The notes beneath the pieces were generated by a model that saw only the letters and a list, made by a program, of their open reading frames with translations, searched no databases and was not told the DNA's origin. Source: Hamadaea sp. (GTDB lineage Bacteria > Actinomycetota > Actinomycetes > Mycobacteriales > Micromonosporaceae). Taken from it: a stretch of DNA of 64,000 bases. Of this stretch, positions 1 through 10,213 are shown piece after piece (position 1 is the stretch's first letter; the number at the start of each line of letters is the position of its first letter). The DNA lies in contig NZ_JABFVK010000030.1 in NCBI RefSeq assembly GCF_013362815.1, positions 1 through 64,000 on the forward strand, written 5' to 3'. The position numbers and the translations under genes were made by a program.

Positions 1-895
1 CGCCGGCCACGATGGCGGCCACGGGGTGTGCCGCCACCAGATGAGCCAAGTGCGCCAGGAGCCCTCCTTTCGCCGCGCCGGCCACCGCAGCGCCACCGGC
101 CGCTTTGCCGAACAGGTCGGCACTCAGCGCAGCCGGCACTGGCAGCAGGGCAAAGCCGGCGAGTAACTGTTCTGGCGGTATCAGCGCCTGGCTGAATCGT
201 GAACAGGCACGGCAGTCTCGGAGGTGCCGAGCGAAGCGCTTACGCCACAACGGATTCGGCTGGCCGTTCCACCCCTCGGCCACGGTCGCCAGGACCGGGC
301 ACCGCGGGTGCGCCTGCAATGCGGCGACCACCGATCGAGCGGTGTCGAGCTGAGCGCGCATCCGTTGTACGCGTACAGCGGCGTGGGCCAGGCCGACACC
401 GGTCGCAGCTGCCACCTCGCTGCGTGACAAGTACCCGGCCACCTCGAGCCACCACAGCGACAGCAGCAGGCGATCGGCGGGATCCAGCCAGCGAGCGCTG
501 TCGGCCACCTGACGGCGTTCGTGCGACAGCGCCTGCTGCAAGACCGCGGTGTCCTCGACAGACGCTCCCGGCTGAAGGTCGTCGGCCTCGGCCAGTCCGG
601 CGCGACGATCGGACATCCGCCGACGTCGGCGCAGATAAGTGCTGACCTGGTGTACGGCGATCGTGGCCAGCCACGCTCGGAAGCGGTCCGGTGCACGCAG
701 AGTGCCGAGGTCGGCCAGCGCCCGCACCATGGTCTCCTGCACCACATCGTCGACGTCGGGACTGTCACCGACCGCTCGGCGCACGAGCGCGTAGACGAAC
801 GGCAGATACCTGCGCAGCAGCTGGTCAGCCGCTAGCCGGTCGCCCTTGTGCGCAGCGTTGATCAGGTATGCGTCGGTGAAGTTCTCGGCGGGCAT
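1..895 (-). CDS. ECF-type sigma-70 factor with zinc-finger-like C-terminal extension (3' end missing)
   Basis: The reading frame opens at the ATG at 895 and runs off the left edge without a stop (298 residues visible). Residues 20-95 read as sigma regions 2.1-2.4 (LPFVYALVRRAVGDSPDVDD, then a typical W-A-T-I-A region before an Arg-rich stretch). Residues 120-190 are a region 4 with a helix-turn-helix (SRSEVAAATGVGLAHAAVRV). After it comes H224-x3-C228-x2-C231, the pattern of zinc-binding anti-sigma (ZAS/zf-HC2) domains, then an Ala/Gly-rich hydrophobic tract at about 245-298 that may begin a membrane segment. ECF factors with fused regulatory tails are a known class in actinobacteria, some with C-terminal carbohydrate-binding domains; this one lies divergent to polysaccharide hydrolases. 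The start is preceded only by a weak GAAG-type ribosome site. The family call is firm; the role of the tail is inference. Confidence 0.85.
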   Translation of the reverse strand, partial: MPAENFTDAYLINAAHKGDRLAADQLLRRYLPFVYALVRRAVGDSPDVDDVVQETMVRALADLGTLRAPDRFRAWLATIAVHQVSTYLRRRRRMSDRRAGLAEADDLQPGASVEDTAVLQQALSHERRQVADSARWLDPADRLLLSLWWLEVAGYLSRSEVAAATGVGLAHAAVRVQRMRAQLDTARSVVAALQAHPRCPVLATVAEGWNGQPNPLWRKRFARHLRDCRACSRFSQALIPPEQLLAGFALLPVPAALSADLFGKAAGGAAVAGAAKGGLLAHLAHLVAAHPVAAIVAG

Positions 896-1000
896 CGTTT
901 TCTTCAAGGTCGAGTACGTGGGGTGTCGACTGTGATGCAGGCCGCCGCATCCGTCAAGGGGATGCCGACTGCGACGTTGTCGGCCTGCCTGACATAACAC

Positions 1001-1018: not shown

Positions 1019-1386
1019 CGCGGGCCATTACCTCCAAATCCGTCGAGCGAAAAGCGTTATCGTCGCTTTCGACGAGACGCCACAATGCCTTCGTAAGCCG
1101 TTTTACCTGGGCAAACTCGGATCCGGATCCGTCGGCGAAACGTGGCTGAAAATTTGCAGTTACGGATGCCTTGAACCCGAGTCGACATTCTGGCAATCTC
1201 GCGATTGTCGATGGAAGCGATCCCAGGCCGATTCGCCCTCGCCATCCCGACCAGGCACCCATTCCGCGCCCACGGAAACGGACGACCATGAAGACCTCCA
1301 CCGGACGAAGTCGGTCCCCCTCCGCCTCCCCGCCACGGCAGCCGCGCCCTCGCGTCAGGCATGACGCCCCAGCCGCCCCGATCGAC

Positions 1387-1576: not shown

Positions 1577-3280
1577 ATGATCCAAGATCCGAACAAGCCG
1601 GGCCACGACGAGCGCAGGCTGCTGAGCCGCCGGGCCGTCCTGACCACGCTGGGGACCGTGCCGGTTCTCACGCTCGCCGCCACGGCACTGGGCACCACCG
1701 ATGCCTCGGCGGCCACGGCGAACATCAATCCGTCGGCGCCGAAGCAGACCATCCGTGGTTTCGGCGGCATGGCCCACGCCGCCTGGATCGGTGACTTGAC
1801 CACCGCTCAACGCGACACCGCCTTCGGCACCGGCGACGGCCACCTGGGATTCTCGGTGCTTCGGATACCCGTCAACGAGAATCAGTCGGACTGGAGCCGG
1901 GACCTCGCGACGGCCCAGCGCGCCGTCGCGCTGGGCGTCACCGTCTTCGCGTCGCCGTGGAACCCTCCGGCGAGCATGACGGAGACCTTCACGCGTGGGA
2001 GCCAGACCGACGCGAAGCGCCTCAAGTACAGCTCCTATGGCGCGTATTCCCAGCACCTCAACAACTTCACCACCTACATGCGAAACAACGGAGTGAACCT
2101 GTACGCCATCTCCGTGCAGAACGAACCCGACTACGCCTACACCTGGACCTGGTGGACGGCTACCGAGATGGTCAACTTCCTGCGGCAGAACGCCGGCGCG
2201 ATCAGCACCAAAGTCATCGCGCCCGAGTCTTTCCAATACGTGAAGTCCATGTCCGACCCGATTCTCAACGACGCCACGGCGTTGGCCAATGTAGACATCA
2301 TCGGGGCGCATCTTTACGGTACGCCTTACTCGAACTTCCCCTACCCGCTCTTCCAGCAGAAGGGAGCGGGCAAAGAGCTCTGGATGACCGAGGTCTATTA
2401 CCCCAACAGCACGGACTCGGGTGACTCTTGGCCCGGTGCGTTGGACGTGGGTGAGCACATCCACCATGCCATGGTCGACGCCCAGTTCCAGACCTATGTC
2501 TGGTGGTACATCCGGCGCAGCTACGGCCCGATGCGCGAGGACGGCCAGATCAGCAAGCGGGGCGCTGTCATGGCCCAGTTCGCGAGGTTCGTACGGCCCG
2601 GCTACGTGCGCATCGACGCCACCGCGAACCCGGCGTCGAACGTCTTCGTCTCGGCGTACCGGGGCGGCGACACCGTCGTCATCGTCGCCGTCAACAAGAA
2701 CACCTCTTCGGTGAGCCAGCAGTTCACCCTGGCGAACGCCAACGCGTCCGGCACCGTCGCGAACTGGCTGACCGACGGAAGCAGGAACGTCGCGGCTCAG
2801 GGCGCGCTGAGCATGTCCAACGGCACGGTCACCGTCACGCTTCCCGCCCGAAGCGTCATGACCCTCGTGACCAGCCTGAACGGCACCTCGTCACCCAGCC
2901 CGTCACCCAGCGGCTCGACCAGCCCCTCCCCGACCGTGTCGCCCACTCCGTCTGCGAGCGGCACCGCTCCCCGGGTCACCTACACGATGAACGCCTGGGA
3001 TTCCGGCTTCACCACGAACATCAACATCGCTAATCCCGGCCCGACCACGATCGACGGCTGGACGCTGGTTTTCACCCTGCCCGCCGGTCAAGCGATCACC
3101 TCCGGCTGGAACGCCACCTTCACACCCGCCAGTGGCCAGGTCAGCGCCCGCAACGTCAGCTACAACGCGACGCTGCCCCCCGGTACGAGCATCGACATCG
3201 GCTTCCAGGCCACACACACCGGCAATACCGCCGAGCCGACCGCGTTCACCCTCAACGGCATCCCTTGCACCGTTTCCTGA
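1577..3280 (+). CDS. Secreted GH30 (subfamily 8-like) glucuronoxylan endo-xylanase with CBM2
   Basis: The 567-residue enzyme should cut xylan backbones near glucuronosyl branches outside the cell. Residues 1-46 form a twin-arginine signal (R18-R19, SRRAVLTTLG, then an Ala-rich core). The catalytic part (about 48-432) closely follows bacterial XynC-type GH30_8 enzymes: IRGFGGMAHAAWIGDLT, SPWNPPASM, acid/base E183 in VQNEPDYA, nucleophile E272 in WMTEVYYPNS, and the YIRRSYGPM segment that in this subfamily binds the glucuronic acid side group. A Ser/Pro/Thr linker (436-465) joins a C-terminal CBM2 (466-567). I chose the ATG at 1577, preceded by GAAGGACGTGAC, because it starts directly before the Tat signal; the open frame itself reaches further upstream. 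GH5 follows after 26 bases, probably co-transcribed. Confidence 0.93.
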   Translation: MIQDPNKPGHDERRLLSRRAVLTTLGTVPVLTLAATALGTTDASAATANINPSAPKQTIRGFGGMAHAAWIGDLTTAQRDTAFGTGDGHLGFSVLRIPVNENQSDWSRDLATAQRAVALGVTVFASPWNPPASMTETFTRGSQTDAKRLKYSSYGAYSQHLNNFTTYMRNNGVNLYAISVQNEPDYAYTWTWWTATEMVNFLRQNAGAISTKVIAPESFQYVKSMSDPILNDATALANVDIIGAHLYGTPYSNFPYPLFQQKGAGKELWMTEVYYPNSTDSGDSWPGALDVGEHIHHAMVDAQFQTYVWWYIRRSYGPMREDGQISKRGAVMAQFARFVRPGYVRIDATANPASNVFVSAYRGGDTVVIVAVNKNTSSVSQQFTLANANASGTVANWLTDGSRNVAAQGALSMSNGTVTVTLPARSVMTLVTSLNGTSSPSPSPSGSTSPSPTVSPTPSASGTAPRVTYTMNAWDSGFTTNINIANPGPTTIDGWTLVFTLPAGQAITSGWNATFTPASGQVSARNVSYNATLPPGTSIDIGFQATHTGNTAEPTAFTLNGIPCTVS

Positions 3281-3306
3281 CTGCGCCTCAACGAAAGGAG
3301 CCACCC

Positions 3307-4905
3307 TTGGCTCGCAACCTCAGGAGAATCAGCAGCATTCTCCTGGCCGGTACGCTGACGGCCGCCCTATCGGTGTCAGGCCTGAGCAGTCAGGCGTCGG
3401 CCGACGCCATGACGCAGTTGAACGCATCGCAGATCGTCGCCGACATGGGCGCGGGCTGGAATCTGGGGAACCAGCTGGAATCGAACTCCAACGGATACCC
3501 CAGCGAAACGGCGTGGGGTAACCCCACGGTGACACAGGCTCTCATCGACCAGGTCAAGGCGGCGGGCTTCAAGACCATCCGGATCCCGGTCTCCTACTTG
3601 AGGTACATCGGACCGGGCCCGGACTACACCATCAACTCCGCCTGGCTCAACAGAATCCAGGAGGTCGTCAACTACGCGTACAACCGCGGCATGTATGTGG
3701 TGATCAACATGCACGGCGACGGCTACAAGACCATCCCCTACTCCTGGCTGATCTGCGACTCCGCCAGTCAAACCGCGATCAGAGCCCAGTATCAGAAGGC
3801 CTGGCAGCAGATCGCCGCCAGGTTTCAGAGCTACGACCAACGCCTGATCTTCGAATCCATGAACGAAGAGTTCGACGGACAGTACGGCAATCCGACTCAA
3901 CCGTGCTACTCGAACATCAACAGCTACAACCAGATCTTCGTCGACACGACGAGAAGAGCCGGCGGCAACAACGACTCCCGGTGGTTACTCGTGCCCGGCT
4001 GGAACACGAACATCGATTACACCGCGGGGAACTATGGGTTCGTGATTCCGAGCGACACCTACCGGTCGTCCTCCATTCCCAGCGCCGAACAGCGGATCAT
4101 GATCTCCGTTCACTATTACGCGCCATGGGACTTCGCCGGCGAGGAGAACGGCACCATCACCCAATGGGGACCGGCCGCGACCAATCCGTCCAGGACGTCG
4201 ACCTGGGGACAGCAGGATTACATGGATTCGCAGCTGAAGGCGATGTACGACAAATTCGTCGTCAGAGGTTTCCCGGTGGTCGTCGGTGAATACGGTTCGA
4301 TCGACAAGTCGTCCTTCGACTCGTCGAACAACCGGTACCGGGCCGACTTCGCCCGCACGCTGGTCGCCACTGCCAAGAAGTACGGAGCCACCACCATTTA
4401 CTGGGACAACGGTGTAAACGGTCAGTACGGCTTCGGGCTGTTCAACCGAAGCACCTACACCGTGACCCAGCCCGGGATCATCAGCGCCATCATGGGAGCG
4501 GTCGGCGGCTCCGGATCGGTCACCCGCTATGAGGCGGAGACGTCGCCGGCGGTATGCACGGGCACGATCGACTCCAACTGGGCCGGTTACTCCGGCAGCG
4601 GCTTCTGCAACGGCAACAACACGGTCGGCGCGTACGCCCAGTTCACGGTCAATGTGAGTGCAGCCGGCACGGCGACGGTGCGAGTCAGGTTCGCCAACGG
4701 CACCACCAGCGCGCGCCCCGCGTCCCTGATCGTCAACGGATCGACCATCCAGACACCCTCGTTCGAAGGCACCGGCACCTGGAGCACCTGGGTCACCAAG
4801 ACCCTCACCGTTTCGCTGAACGCCGGCAGCAACACCATCCGGTTCAATCCCACGACGGCCGGCGGCCTGCCCAACATCGACTACCTGGAAACAGCGACAT
4901 CCTAG
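3307..4905 (+). CDS. Secreted GH5 endo-glucanase-type enzyme with C-terminal CBM6/35-like module
   Basis: The start is a TTG at 3307, seven bases after the ribosome site GAAAGGAG; it gives a clean Sec signal peptide (residues 1-32, ending SSQASAD). The GH5 domain (about 35-398) shows GAGWNLGNQLE, FKTIRIPVSYLRY, INMHGD, catalytic N186-E187 in FESMNEEFDG and nucleophile E328 in VVVGEYGS. GH5 enzymes of this kind cut beta-1,4-glucans or related polymers; subfamily 4 seems likely but I cannot prove it. Residues 407-532 form a beta-sandwich carbohydrate-binding module of CBM6/35 type (RYEAE start, NTIRFNPTTAGGLPNIDYLE end). It lies 26 bases after GH30 and is followed by a strong hairpin terminator, so the two hydrolases form one operon. 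Confidence 0.9.
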   Translation: MARNLRRISSILLAGTLTAALSVSGLSSQASADAMTQLNASQIVADMGAGWNLGNQLESNSNGYPSETAWGNPTVTQALIDQVKAAGFKTIRIPVSYLRYIGPGPDYTINSAWLNRIQEVVNYAYNRGMYVVINMHGDGYKTIPYSWLICDSASQTAIRAQYQKAWQQIAARFQSYDQRLIFESMNEEFDGQYGNPTQPCYSNINSYNQIFVDTTRRAGGNNDSRWLLVPGWNTNIDYTAGNYGFVIPSDTYRSSSIPSAEQRIMISVHYYAPWDFAGEENGTITQWGPAATNPSRTSTWGQQDYMDSQLKAMYDKFVVRGFPVVVGEYGSIDKSSFDSSNNRYRADFARTLVATAKKYGATTIYWDNGVNGQYGFGLFNRSTYTVTQPGIISAIMGAVGGSGSVTRYEAETSPAVCTGTIDSNWAGYSGSGFCNGNNTVGAYAQFTVNVSAAGTATVRVRFANGTTSARPASLIVNGSTIQTPSFEGTGTWSTWVTKTLTVSLNAGSNTIRFNPTTAGGLPNIDYLETATS

Positions 4906-8632: not shown

Positions 8633-8830
8633 ATGAAAGGCCAGGCCACGGTCCGGCTTTCACACGGGTCGCGTGGTACGCCGGTCCACCGGGCCAGCCG
8701 TCGGGGCCGGACGACTTCGGTCTTCGCCGTCACAAGCGGACGAGGCCTGTAGCGTCGGACCATTTTCGGACAGAGACGGGTTTCACACAGGCCGTGGACA
8801 GAGCCGGTGTCCTGGTTCCAATCTCGGCGC

Positions 8831-10213
8831 ATGAATCTCGACTTCTCGCGGCGTGCCGCCGCGACTGTTGCCGCAGCCGTGCTGCTGCTGTCCACCGTGG
8901 TGGCGCAGCCCGCGTCGGCGGCCGATGACGTCCGCACCTCGTCGCTGCGCCTGTGCGACCCCACCGGCTGCTACGTCGCGTGGCGCGTCGTCGACTCCGA
9001 TCACGACGGAGTCTGCGACGCCGACGAGTTGATGGCGGGCACCGACCCGTATGACCCGACCAGCCGTCCCGGGCTGAAGGTGGTGGTAGAGATCGCCCGC
9101 GAGCGCAAGCTGCCGTCCTTCGAGAACGGGCTGGGCGTGTTCCTCGCCCTCCCGCAGGAGATCATCGAGGCACGCGGCAAGGCTGGCATGGATGTGCTGG
9201 GCGCCTTCGACATGGCCTCCCGGCACGACACGCTGCACCACTTCAGCCTCACCTTCGGTGAGATCACGACCGGCGGCGTCGACCTCGACCCGACGCGTGG
9301 CTTCTCGCTCGGCCTGGCCGGGAAGGGCGGGCCGGACTCCAAGCCGGGTCTGCGGGTCGGCGGTGTCTCCGTCGGGCTGATCGCCGCCGGATTCGACGAG
9401 CCGCAGTACTCGTTCGGGCAGGAGCACGGCGGTGTCAAGTCCGTCGACAGGTACAAGGACGGCGGCAGCCGTTTCGTGTTCAACGACGGTGCCAGCCGGG
9501 AAACTCACCCCGACGGCCAGGGCGGCTTCGTGCGTACCACCACCAACCCTGACGACAGCCCCGGACCTACGACGACGGGGCAGTCCCAAACGGAGAGCGA
9601 CGGCGAGGGCGGCACTGTCCACCGGGAGAAGGAGACCACCACCAACCCCAACGACGATGTGGACACGGTCGTGTACCGCGAGACCCATGACGCGCCCGGC
9701 GGCGGAAGCAGCAGCATGACGACGGTCGTGCAGGTTGTCCGCGACGAAAACGGCGACGTCACCGGCACGTACAAGACGACGATCGTCACCATCACCTCCG
9801 CCGACGGCGAGTACAGCTCGTCGGACGTCACGATCGAGCAGTGCGACAACAGCGACACCTGCACCGTGATCGCCTCCGGCTATGAAGACTCCGACACCGC
9901 CAACGATGAGACGTACTACAACCCCGACGCCGACACCACGATCATCACCTTCGAGATGCAGGACAACGTTCTGCGCACCCGCGGCGCGGCGGTGAAGGTG
10001 ATGAACGGCTGGGCCGCACCCGGCTTCGAGAACGACCCGGCCAACCCCCACGACCCGGGTCTGATCGGATTTATCGACTCCGATCTGCAAACCAGCTACC
10101 TGCTGGTGTCGCCGCCTCGGGTGACCAAGGCCCAGCCGGAGGGCCACCCCGGGCTTCCCCAGCCTGGACAGGCTGCCCCGAGGGACGGCGGCTGCGGCGG
10201 ATACTGCGGCTGA
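8831..10213 (+). CDS. Secreted acidic protein with one Ca-binding-type (TSP3/EF-hand-like) motif, function unknown
   Basis: From the ATG at 8831 the protein has 460 residues, with a Sec signal peptide (FSRRAAATVAAAVLLLSTVV, cleavage after QPASA). Residues 54-75 contain DSDHDGVCDADELMAGTDPY, the spaced-Asp pattern of thrombospondin-3 or EF-hand-like calcium-binding loops. The middle part (about 230-385) is low-complexity, rich in Thr, Asp, Gly and Ser (TTTNPDDSPGPTTTGQSQ), and likely extended. No catalytic motif is recognisable. The frame is open from a GTG at 8807, but the signal peptide fits the ATG. It ends at a strong bidirectional hairpin shared with the TetR gene. Confidence 0.75.
   Translation: MNLDFSRRAAATVAAAVLLLSTVVAQPASAADDVRTSSLRLCDPTGCYVAWRVVDSDHDGVCDADELMAGTDPYDPTSRPGLKVVVEIARERKLPSFENGLGVFLALPQEIIEARGKAGMDVLGAFDMASRHDTLHHFSLTFGEITTGGVDLDPTRGFSLGLAGKGGPDSKPGLRVGGVSVGLIAAGFDEPQYSFGQEHGGVKSVDRYKDGGSRFVFNDGASRETHPDGQGGFVRTTTNPDDSPGPTTTGQSQTESDGEGGTVHREKETTTNPNDDVDTVVYRETHDAPGGGSSSMTTVVQVVRDENGDVTGTYKTTIVTITSADGEYSSSDVTIEQCDNSDTCTVIASGYEDSDTANDETYYNPDADTTIITFEMQDNVLRTRGAAVKVMNGWAAPGFENDPANPHDPGLIGFIDSDLQTSYLLVSPPRVTKAQPEGHPGLPQPGQAAPRDGGCGGYCG

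Follow-up and report, generated by a model that had tools for sequence, protein, structure and literature searches.

A fused ECF sigma factor with a terminal AbfB/CBM42 domain next to xylanase genes in Hamadaea: a candidate single-chain sensor of arabinoxylan

The window analysed here, a stretch of 64,000 nucleotides from a Hamadaea sp. assembly (G000:C54:1-64000), starts at base 1 of contig C54. Its left end is occupied by a minus-strand open reading frame that begins with an ATG at 895-893 and remains open up to the window edge, with the stop codon absent. The possibility that the encoded sigma chain ends at this edge was rejected, given that the left edge of the window is the edge of the contig. 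The relevant features are as follows.

1..61, minus strand: start of a hydrophobic, probably membrane-spanning stretch (residues 279-298, running on to about residue 312 on contig C51; Kyte-Doolittle)
1..895, minus strand: 5' 298 codons of the fused ECF sigma gene (503 codons in total, the remainder at C51:120890-121506)
203..301, minus strand: zinc anti-sigma motif C199...H224-x3-C228-x2-C231, with equivalents invariant in an 8-row alignment
344..508, minus strand: sigma-70 region 4, approximate (end of the TIGR02937 match to residues 22-184; inner border inferred)
617..820, minus strand: sigma-70 region 2 (residues 26-93, Sigma70_r2)
925..958, minus strand: putative sigma-gene promoter CTTGAC-N-CACAGTCGAC, kept in the ortholog and in AbfB-type relatives
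1170..1201, plus strand: putative xylanase promoter element CTTGA...CGACATTCTGGCAATCTC, conserved
1212..1225, plus strand: LacI/CebR-like operator TGGAAGCGATCCCA, just past the xylanase promoter element
1577..3280, plus strand: GH30 glucuronoarabinoxylan endo-xylanase (XynC) with a C-terminal CBM2, divergent from the sigma gene
3265..4905, plus strand: GH5 family enzyme with a C-terminal CBM6/35-like domain, start codon uncertain

The rest of the sigma gene appears to reside on another contig of the same assembly. In a search of the protein against its own genome, residues 271-298 recur at the extreme end of contig C51, the last 92 bases of which match window positions 1-92 at 89 of 92 positions, the first 86 being identical and all three mismatches falling within the last six bases of C51. 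The joined chain comprises 503 amino acids, in frame, and is colinear end to end with a 505-amino-acid ortholog encoded on a single contig of a same-genus genome (G001); because of this end-to-end alignment, the join is very probably right. Beyond the window edge, 205 residues complete the membrane-helix-like stretch and add a Pro/Ser-rich linker followed by an AbfB/CBM42 domain. The gene next downstream of the sigma gene on C51 encodes a STAS-domain, anti-sigma-antagonist-like protein (L119:8472-8774, minus strand), and the 544-amino-acid protein encoded adjoining it (L119:6790-8424, minus strand) yielded no Pfam match at E 0.1 and no NCBIfam match at E 0.001. Further along the window, positions 8807-10213 encode a secreted-looking protein of 468 amino acids with a weak match to bacterial TSP3 / EF-hand-like sequences.

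The order of domains in the complete chain is ECF sigma2/sigma4, zinc anti-sigma motif, likely membrane helix, Pro/Ser-rich linker and C-terminal AbfB/CBM42. Like other ECF factors, the protein combines sigma2 and sigma4 without sigma3 and matches the superfamily model (TIGR02937, sigma70-ECF, residues 22-184; 70.2 bits against a cut-off of 42.9), with sigma4 on its own giving no match in the Pfam search. The zinc motif reads HLRDCRAC, and C199, H224, C228 and C231 show the arrangement of a zinc anti-sigma domain, H-x3-C-x2-C with a fourth ligand about 25 residues earlier, C199 being 25 residues ahead of the His; the Pfam scan detected no match to the zf-HC2 model. The membrane helix was called with hydropathy as the sole basis: the top hydrophobic 19-residue segments begin at residues 244, 279 and 294, the last of these spanning the window edge (Kyte-Doolittle). 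The linker (residues 316-358) is 70% Pro/Ser/Thr/Ala, and residues 366-496 match AbfB, PF05270, with 120.1 bits against a cut-off of 22.8 (Pfam E 9.3e-35). The divergent gene scores 739 bits against the NCBIfam XynC cut-off of 650 and matches a solved glucuronoxylanase XynC with an E of 3e-170, and its Pfam GH30 matches fall below the cut-off. The earlier note on this DNA had read an ECF-like factor running on into H-x3-C-x2-C and a hydrophobic stretch, with an anti-sigma-like module in the same chain, in a gene divergent from GH30 and beside hydrolases. The motif, the hydropathy and the conservation of the zinc motif in the family agree with the first two points; the neighbour is indeed a xylanase, specifically of the glucuronoarabinoxylan type by NCBIfam XynC; and the sequence left of the window, which the note had proposed to read, contains the membrane-helix-like stretch and AbfB/CBM42 rather than an early end of the chain.

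Proteins that fuse a sigma factor to zinc, membrane and carbohydrate-binding domains (ECF52, ECF53) are known, and the window protein is a further such protein, typed as ECF52/ECF53-like by its architecture of sigma, zinc finger, membrane helix, proline-rich linker and carbohydrate domain. According to the available parts of PMC8999054, ECF48, ECF52 and ECF53 are grouped as fused zinc/membrane forms; the window protein shares with ECF53 and ECF48 the fused zinc anti-sigma domain and membrane helix. According to the available parts of the review PMC10766802, the GH and carbohydrate-binding domains of some ECF52/ECF53 members are computational predictions that have yet to be validated by experiment; the earlier note, too, mentions fused ECF groups that end in carbohydrate-binding domains. 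A close known counterpart is SCO4117 of Streptomyces coelicolor (ECF52), a single chain that likewise comprises a sigma domain, a zinc finger, a membrane region, a proline-rich extension and, at its end, a carbohydrate-binding domain. When cut back to the sigma domain, by loss of the zinc finger, the membrane region and the carbohydrate module, SCO4117 activates its own gene (available parts of PMC5826349). According to the same parts, however, SCO4117 has a smart00776-type module, is encoded downstream of atrA and controls development, whereas the window protein has an AbfB/CBM42 module and is encoded beside xylanases. Similarly, IutY of Pseudomonas putida (ECF243) is an ECF sigma fused to a membrane anti-sigma and freed by proteolysis, but answers a siderophore (aerobactin) and has no carbohydrate domain (available parts of PMC8999054); the window protein shares the fusion, and proteolytic release is proposed here by analogy.

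A CBM42 outer domain on a membrane anti-sigma module is also found in SigI5/RsgI5, where RsgI5 is the CBM42-bearing anti-sigma of Clostridium thermocellum (available parts of PMC4711584 and PMC12203970), and for RsgI fragments a final ClpXP proteolysis step has been shown (available parts of PMC12203970). In that case, two proteins of the SigI and RsgI types are involved, in Firmicutes, in contrast to the single chain with ECF and zinc motif described here. The Pfam matches of the window protein include no RsgI domain; what it has in common with RsgI5 is limited to the outer domain, and the use of CBM42 in the fused sigma factor and in RsgI5 appears to be independent. The available parts of PMC8999054 and PMC10766802 make no mention of a sensor-neighbour match or a promoter element for ECF53/ECF48, those of PMC8103513 do not name ECF48, ECF52 or ECF53, and among the listed titles and abstract openings of the open-licence literature there is neither an AbfB-ended sigma factor nor a CTTGA-GAAAC element.

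The fused family was sampled as 98 homologs, namely, the window protein, 58 loci from related genomes (two of them from its own genome) and 39 further loci (L039-L077) that are the best 39 of 80 matches, the other 41, weaker, being left out. HxxxCxxC is present in 98 of 98 members and a Cys or His 22-27 residues ahead of it in 94, so that the zinc motif is not a chance occurrence; a helix-like hydrophobic stretch past the motif is found in 94 of 98 as well. The C-termini vary. The large clusters, each named cluster being identified by a Pfam scan of one to three representatives, are CAP (28 members), AbfB (26), right-handed beta-helix / pectate-lyase-like (12) and Glyco_hydro_cc, GH128-like (8). 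The remainder includes a domain of distant members with no Pfam match (8), small clusters of 3, 2 and 2, seven singles (L126 among them) and two members with short or open ends. In a quick tree of the sigma part, built from 77 rows after 21 of the 98 had been dropped as near-copies or odd, the outer domain needs 16 changes, compared to a minimum of 9 and an average of 47.5 for shuffles; well-supported branches by themselves require no fewer than 2 changes for AbfB and 3 for CAP. As judged from this tree, the outer domains are mostly co-inherited yet have also been exchanged.

Several members depart from the standard layout. One paralog in the host genome (L150, G000:C68) ends in a domain with no Pfam match that it shares with L147, and another (L161, G000:C15) ends shortly past the zinc motif, the sensor being absent. 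In L126 / L275 (G034:C1), AbfB is in a different frame from the sigma part, with the break within the Pro-rich linker, either a sequencing error or a split gene; a similar split has been reported in S. clavuligerus (available parts of PMC5826349). A structure prediction for the relative L045 (8 rows) gave a mean pLDDT of 48.6, too poor to use.

Nine distinct PDB sequences match the outer domain with E values no higher than 0.01; they include a Streptomyces arabinofuranosidase (3akf, 1e-15), RsgI5 (9fnk, 9e-13) and the fungal AbfB (1wd3, 7e-12). In all 26 AbfB-type sigmas, the window protein included, His and Asp occupy the equivalents of His416 and Asp435 of the solved fungal AbfB, which we take, in role and numbering, to be arabinofuranose contact residues; in the window protein, this His and Asp belong to the second repeat. 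The third CBM42 repeat is less well preserved: at the His463 position, His is found in 13 of 26 members and Leu in the window protein, and an acidic residue close to the end of this repeat, searched for with a simple pattern, is present in 11 of 26 and absent from the window protein. With these third-repeat His and acidic positions lost, the binding surface of the window CBM42 is probably kept in part at most. The host genome encodes two AbfB domains: besides that of the sigma protein, there is one on C20 whose protein, judged by eye, resembles a GH54 enzyme. GH54 catalytic domains are usually paired with AbfB.

The genes around the family members were surveyed, up to two per side, with a simple GC-based gene caller (some calls are wrong), and the tallies cover the 25 most frequent families per set, so that a family missing from a list could still account for one or two genes, but no more. 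For the AbfB type, 20 of the 26 members were used, without the joined window locus and five related Streptomyces; the families listed among their 76 neighbouring genes include ricin-type domains (16), CBM2 (10), GH62 (6), GH43 (6), GH10 (4), LacI (4), GH27 (3), GH54 (2) and AbfB (2). Around the pooled pectate-lyase-like and GH128-like members (20 of 20; 78 genes), those listed are ricin-type domains (13), pectinesterase (9) and pectate lyase (7). Around CAP-type members (15 of 28 plus L066, with several loci from one genus, Lentzea; 64 genes), the list has CAP (8) and is otherwise mixed. The ortholog in G001 is flanked by a GH54 arabinofuranosidase catalytic gene and by GH10-CBM2 and GH30-like-CBM2 genes. 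Because the neighbour families contrast between sensor types, these comparisons of gene content support a link between outer domain and substrate.

The intergenic region between the sigma gene and the xylanase gene contains two blocks conserved between both orthologs. Block 1, on the sigma side (CTTGAC-N20-22-AGTCAACNNC), has 14 matches in 13 of 121 family genomes, with 3 in the reversed control; 13 of these 14 are just upstream of a fused-family sigma gene, and for 11 of the 13, AbfB is found within the fetched stretch. The window copy, which has AGTCGAC, is outside the 14 matches. A sigma-gene pattern with AGTCRAC matched 15 times in 5 genomes versus 4 in the reversed control; five of the matches are known sigma-gene sites and, with the other ten left aside, no wider regulon was read from this pattern. 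G132, from the same family group, carries a promoter stretch identical to that of Catellatospora methionotrophica, which belongs to the Micromonosporaceae, in keeping with a host that is probably of this family. Block 2, on the xylanase side (AYRTTCTGGCAATMTC), has 10 matches, spread over 7 of 121 genomes, versus zero in the control; nine precede hydrolase genes with secretion-like starts, and the tenth (G111) is divergent from a sigma gene, with no such enzyme called behind it.

Relaxed to GAAACATTCTGGCAATCTC with up to 3 mismatches, block 2 has 92 matches in 51 of 121 genomes (control 4), and the conserved element, CTTGA...GAAAC...GGCAATCTC, stands before many hemicellulase genes. Of the 92, 52 distinct contexts were read, including 20 fetched regions chosen in favour of few mismatches and closeness to sigma genes, and a gene was called in 51. 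Their Pfam assignments are ricin-type 22, GH10 8, GH43 6, solute-binding proteins 4, GH27 3, GDSL esterase 3, two each of GH54, GH62, GH95 and GH127, one each of GH59 and GH16, and other single families. At least 20 of the 92 copies have a fused sigma gene, from a list of 150, no further than 10 kb away, against 0.30 expected under uniform placement; of the 14 among these 20 whose sigma locus was inspected, 11 are beside 10 AbfB-encoding sigma loci (one frame-shifted, with two matches) and 3 beside sensor-less sigmas. Among the sigma genes listed, 37 genomes have both element and sigma, 14 the element only, 27 the sigma only and 43 neither (Fisher p 2.4e-4, kinship ignored), and 76 of the 92 copies belong to genomes with the fused family. 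The sensor-less L266, L272 and L273 stop right after the zinc motif and are located directly upstream of a GH10-like gene that bears the promoter element; they have either lost their sensors or represent constitutive forms. A de novo motif search (EM) of upstream regions was discarded, swamped by the coding GC signal.

Upstream of the sigma genes themselves, CTTKAC-N17-19-CANNNT, a pattern defined after inspection of the sequences, is found in 6 of 26 AbfB members (0.06 on average in shuffles) and in 8 of 12 pectate-lyase-like ones (0.03 on average), whereas the CAP, GH128-like and distant classes lack it. With TANNNT in place of CANNNT, it is found in none of the five classes tested. The AbfB-type L132 and L144 have TTGAC-N-TANNNT, a housekeeping-like sigma-gene promoter without the leading C. 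The pectate-lyase-type sigma genes L139, L154-L159 and L071 have the upstream CTTKAC-N17-19-CANNNT in common, and it often ends in CACGAT. This sigma-gene promoter pattern is a lead, short of proof.

Taken together, these observations make it fairly probable, as far as sequence comparison can indicate, that the protein is a one-protein transmembrane signalling device for arabinoxylan that drives its own gene and hemicellulases. We infer that the fused sigma factor senses polysaccharide directly, which is backed by the contact residues found in 26 of 26 members, the solved anti-sigma CBM42, the sensor-matched neighbours and the candidate regulon element. The most likely course of events, by analogy with ECF52 SCO4117, IutY and RsgI proteolysis, would be that, at rest, the zinc domain locks the sigma part in an inactive, membrane-held state, that the extracellular CBM42 meets arabinofuranose side chains of arabinoxylan, that this engagement exposes the chain to regulated intramembrane proteolysis, and that the freed sigma part transcribes its own gene and nearby hemicellulase genes. 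Several findings run against this explanation, namely, the 14 genomes with the element but without a listed family member and the 27 with the reverse, the three relatives beside GH10 genes that lack any sensor, the TANNNT hexamers upstream of the L132 and L144 sigma genes, and the weak conservation of the third CBM42 repeat in the window protein.

A rival account concerns the promoter step. The element reads TTGANN-N17-CAATCT, like a sigma70-type housekeeping promoter, and boxes similar to TGGAAGCGATCCCA come after it in many contexts of other genomes, resembling TGGGAGCGCTCCCA, which we take to be the CebR/LacI operator consensus. A perfect-TTGACA variant precedes solute-binding-protein genes, including one in G061, where no family member is listed. 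In L257-L259 and L276, this variant and a TGGGAGCGCTCCC box stand before solute-binding-protein genes resembling cebE. The element could accordingly be a housekeeping promoter followed by a LacI-type (CebR-like) operator, the sigma factor having other targets and the proximity stemming from joint hemicellulose loci. The variant before cebE-like genes (so named by resemblance, from solute-binding Pfam models) and the 14 genomes with the element but no listed family member fit this account, and the element was therefore rejected as proof of sigma recognition. Conversely, GAAAC between the hexamers recurs as well, although it is part of the search pattern; the 14 hexamers found after CTTKAC-N17-19 all read CANNNT and never TANNNT, albeit with a post hoc pattern; and 76 of the 92 copies are in genomes with the fused family. 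We consider this account a serious contender that falls somewhat short of an even chance; it touches the promoter step alone and is compatible with the rest of the arabinoxylan-sensing explanation.

Alternatively, the same membrane device might watch the cell's own arabinose-containing wall glycans through its CBM42 and control an envelope or development regulon, as SCO4117 does, the xylanase neighbours being incidental. Arabinose occurs in the walls of the bacterial family of the host, and CAP-type relatives are mostly found among mixed genes. The precedent of SCO4117 (ECF52), which controls development and antibiotic production, points the same way (available parts of PMC5826349). Nevertheless, the neighbour enzymes track the sensor type, the divergent gene encodes a glucuronoarabinoxylanase and the ortholog locus is a hemicellulase cluster, which makes this possibility unlikely. 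A faulty contig join, with the AbfB domain being part of a different gene, might be suspected from the three mismatches at the very end of C51, within its last six bases, but is highly improbable, given the 86 identical bases in frame, the 505-amino-acid ortholog aligned end to end and 25 more relatives that end in AbfB.

Beyond this locus, it is a tentative proposition, in our estimate rather doubtful than probable, that the fused family as a whole represents a modular one-chain polysaccharide-sensing platform of actinobacteria, in which a sigma, zinc-lock and membrane chassis stays constant while a swappable outer domain (arabinofuranose-binding, pectate-lyase-like, GH128-like or CAP) would identify the polymer and so predict the regulon, with the AbfB form driving an arabinoxylan regulon via CTTGA-GAAAC-GGCAATCTC, convergent with SigI/RsgI. 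A nameable ligand class, a divergent target enzyme, a candidate promoter element and sensor-swapped relatives make single-chain sensing unusually testable in this case. The findings suggest that the outer domains of these sigma factors might be read genome by genome to predict the polysaccharide to which each regulator responds.
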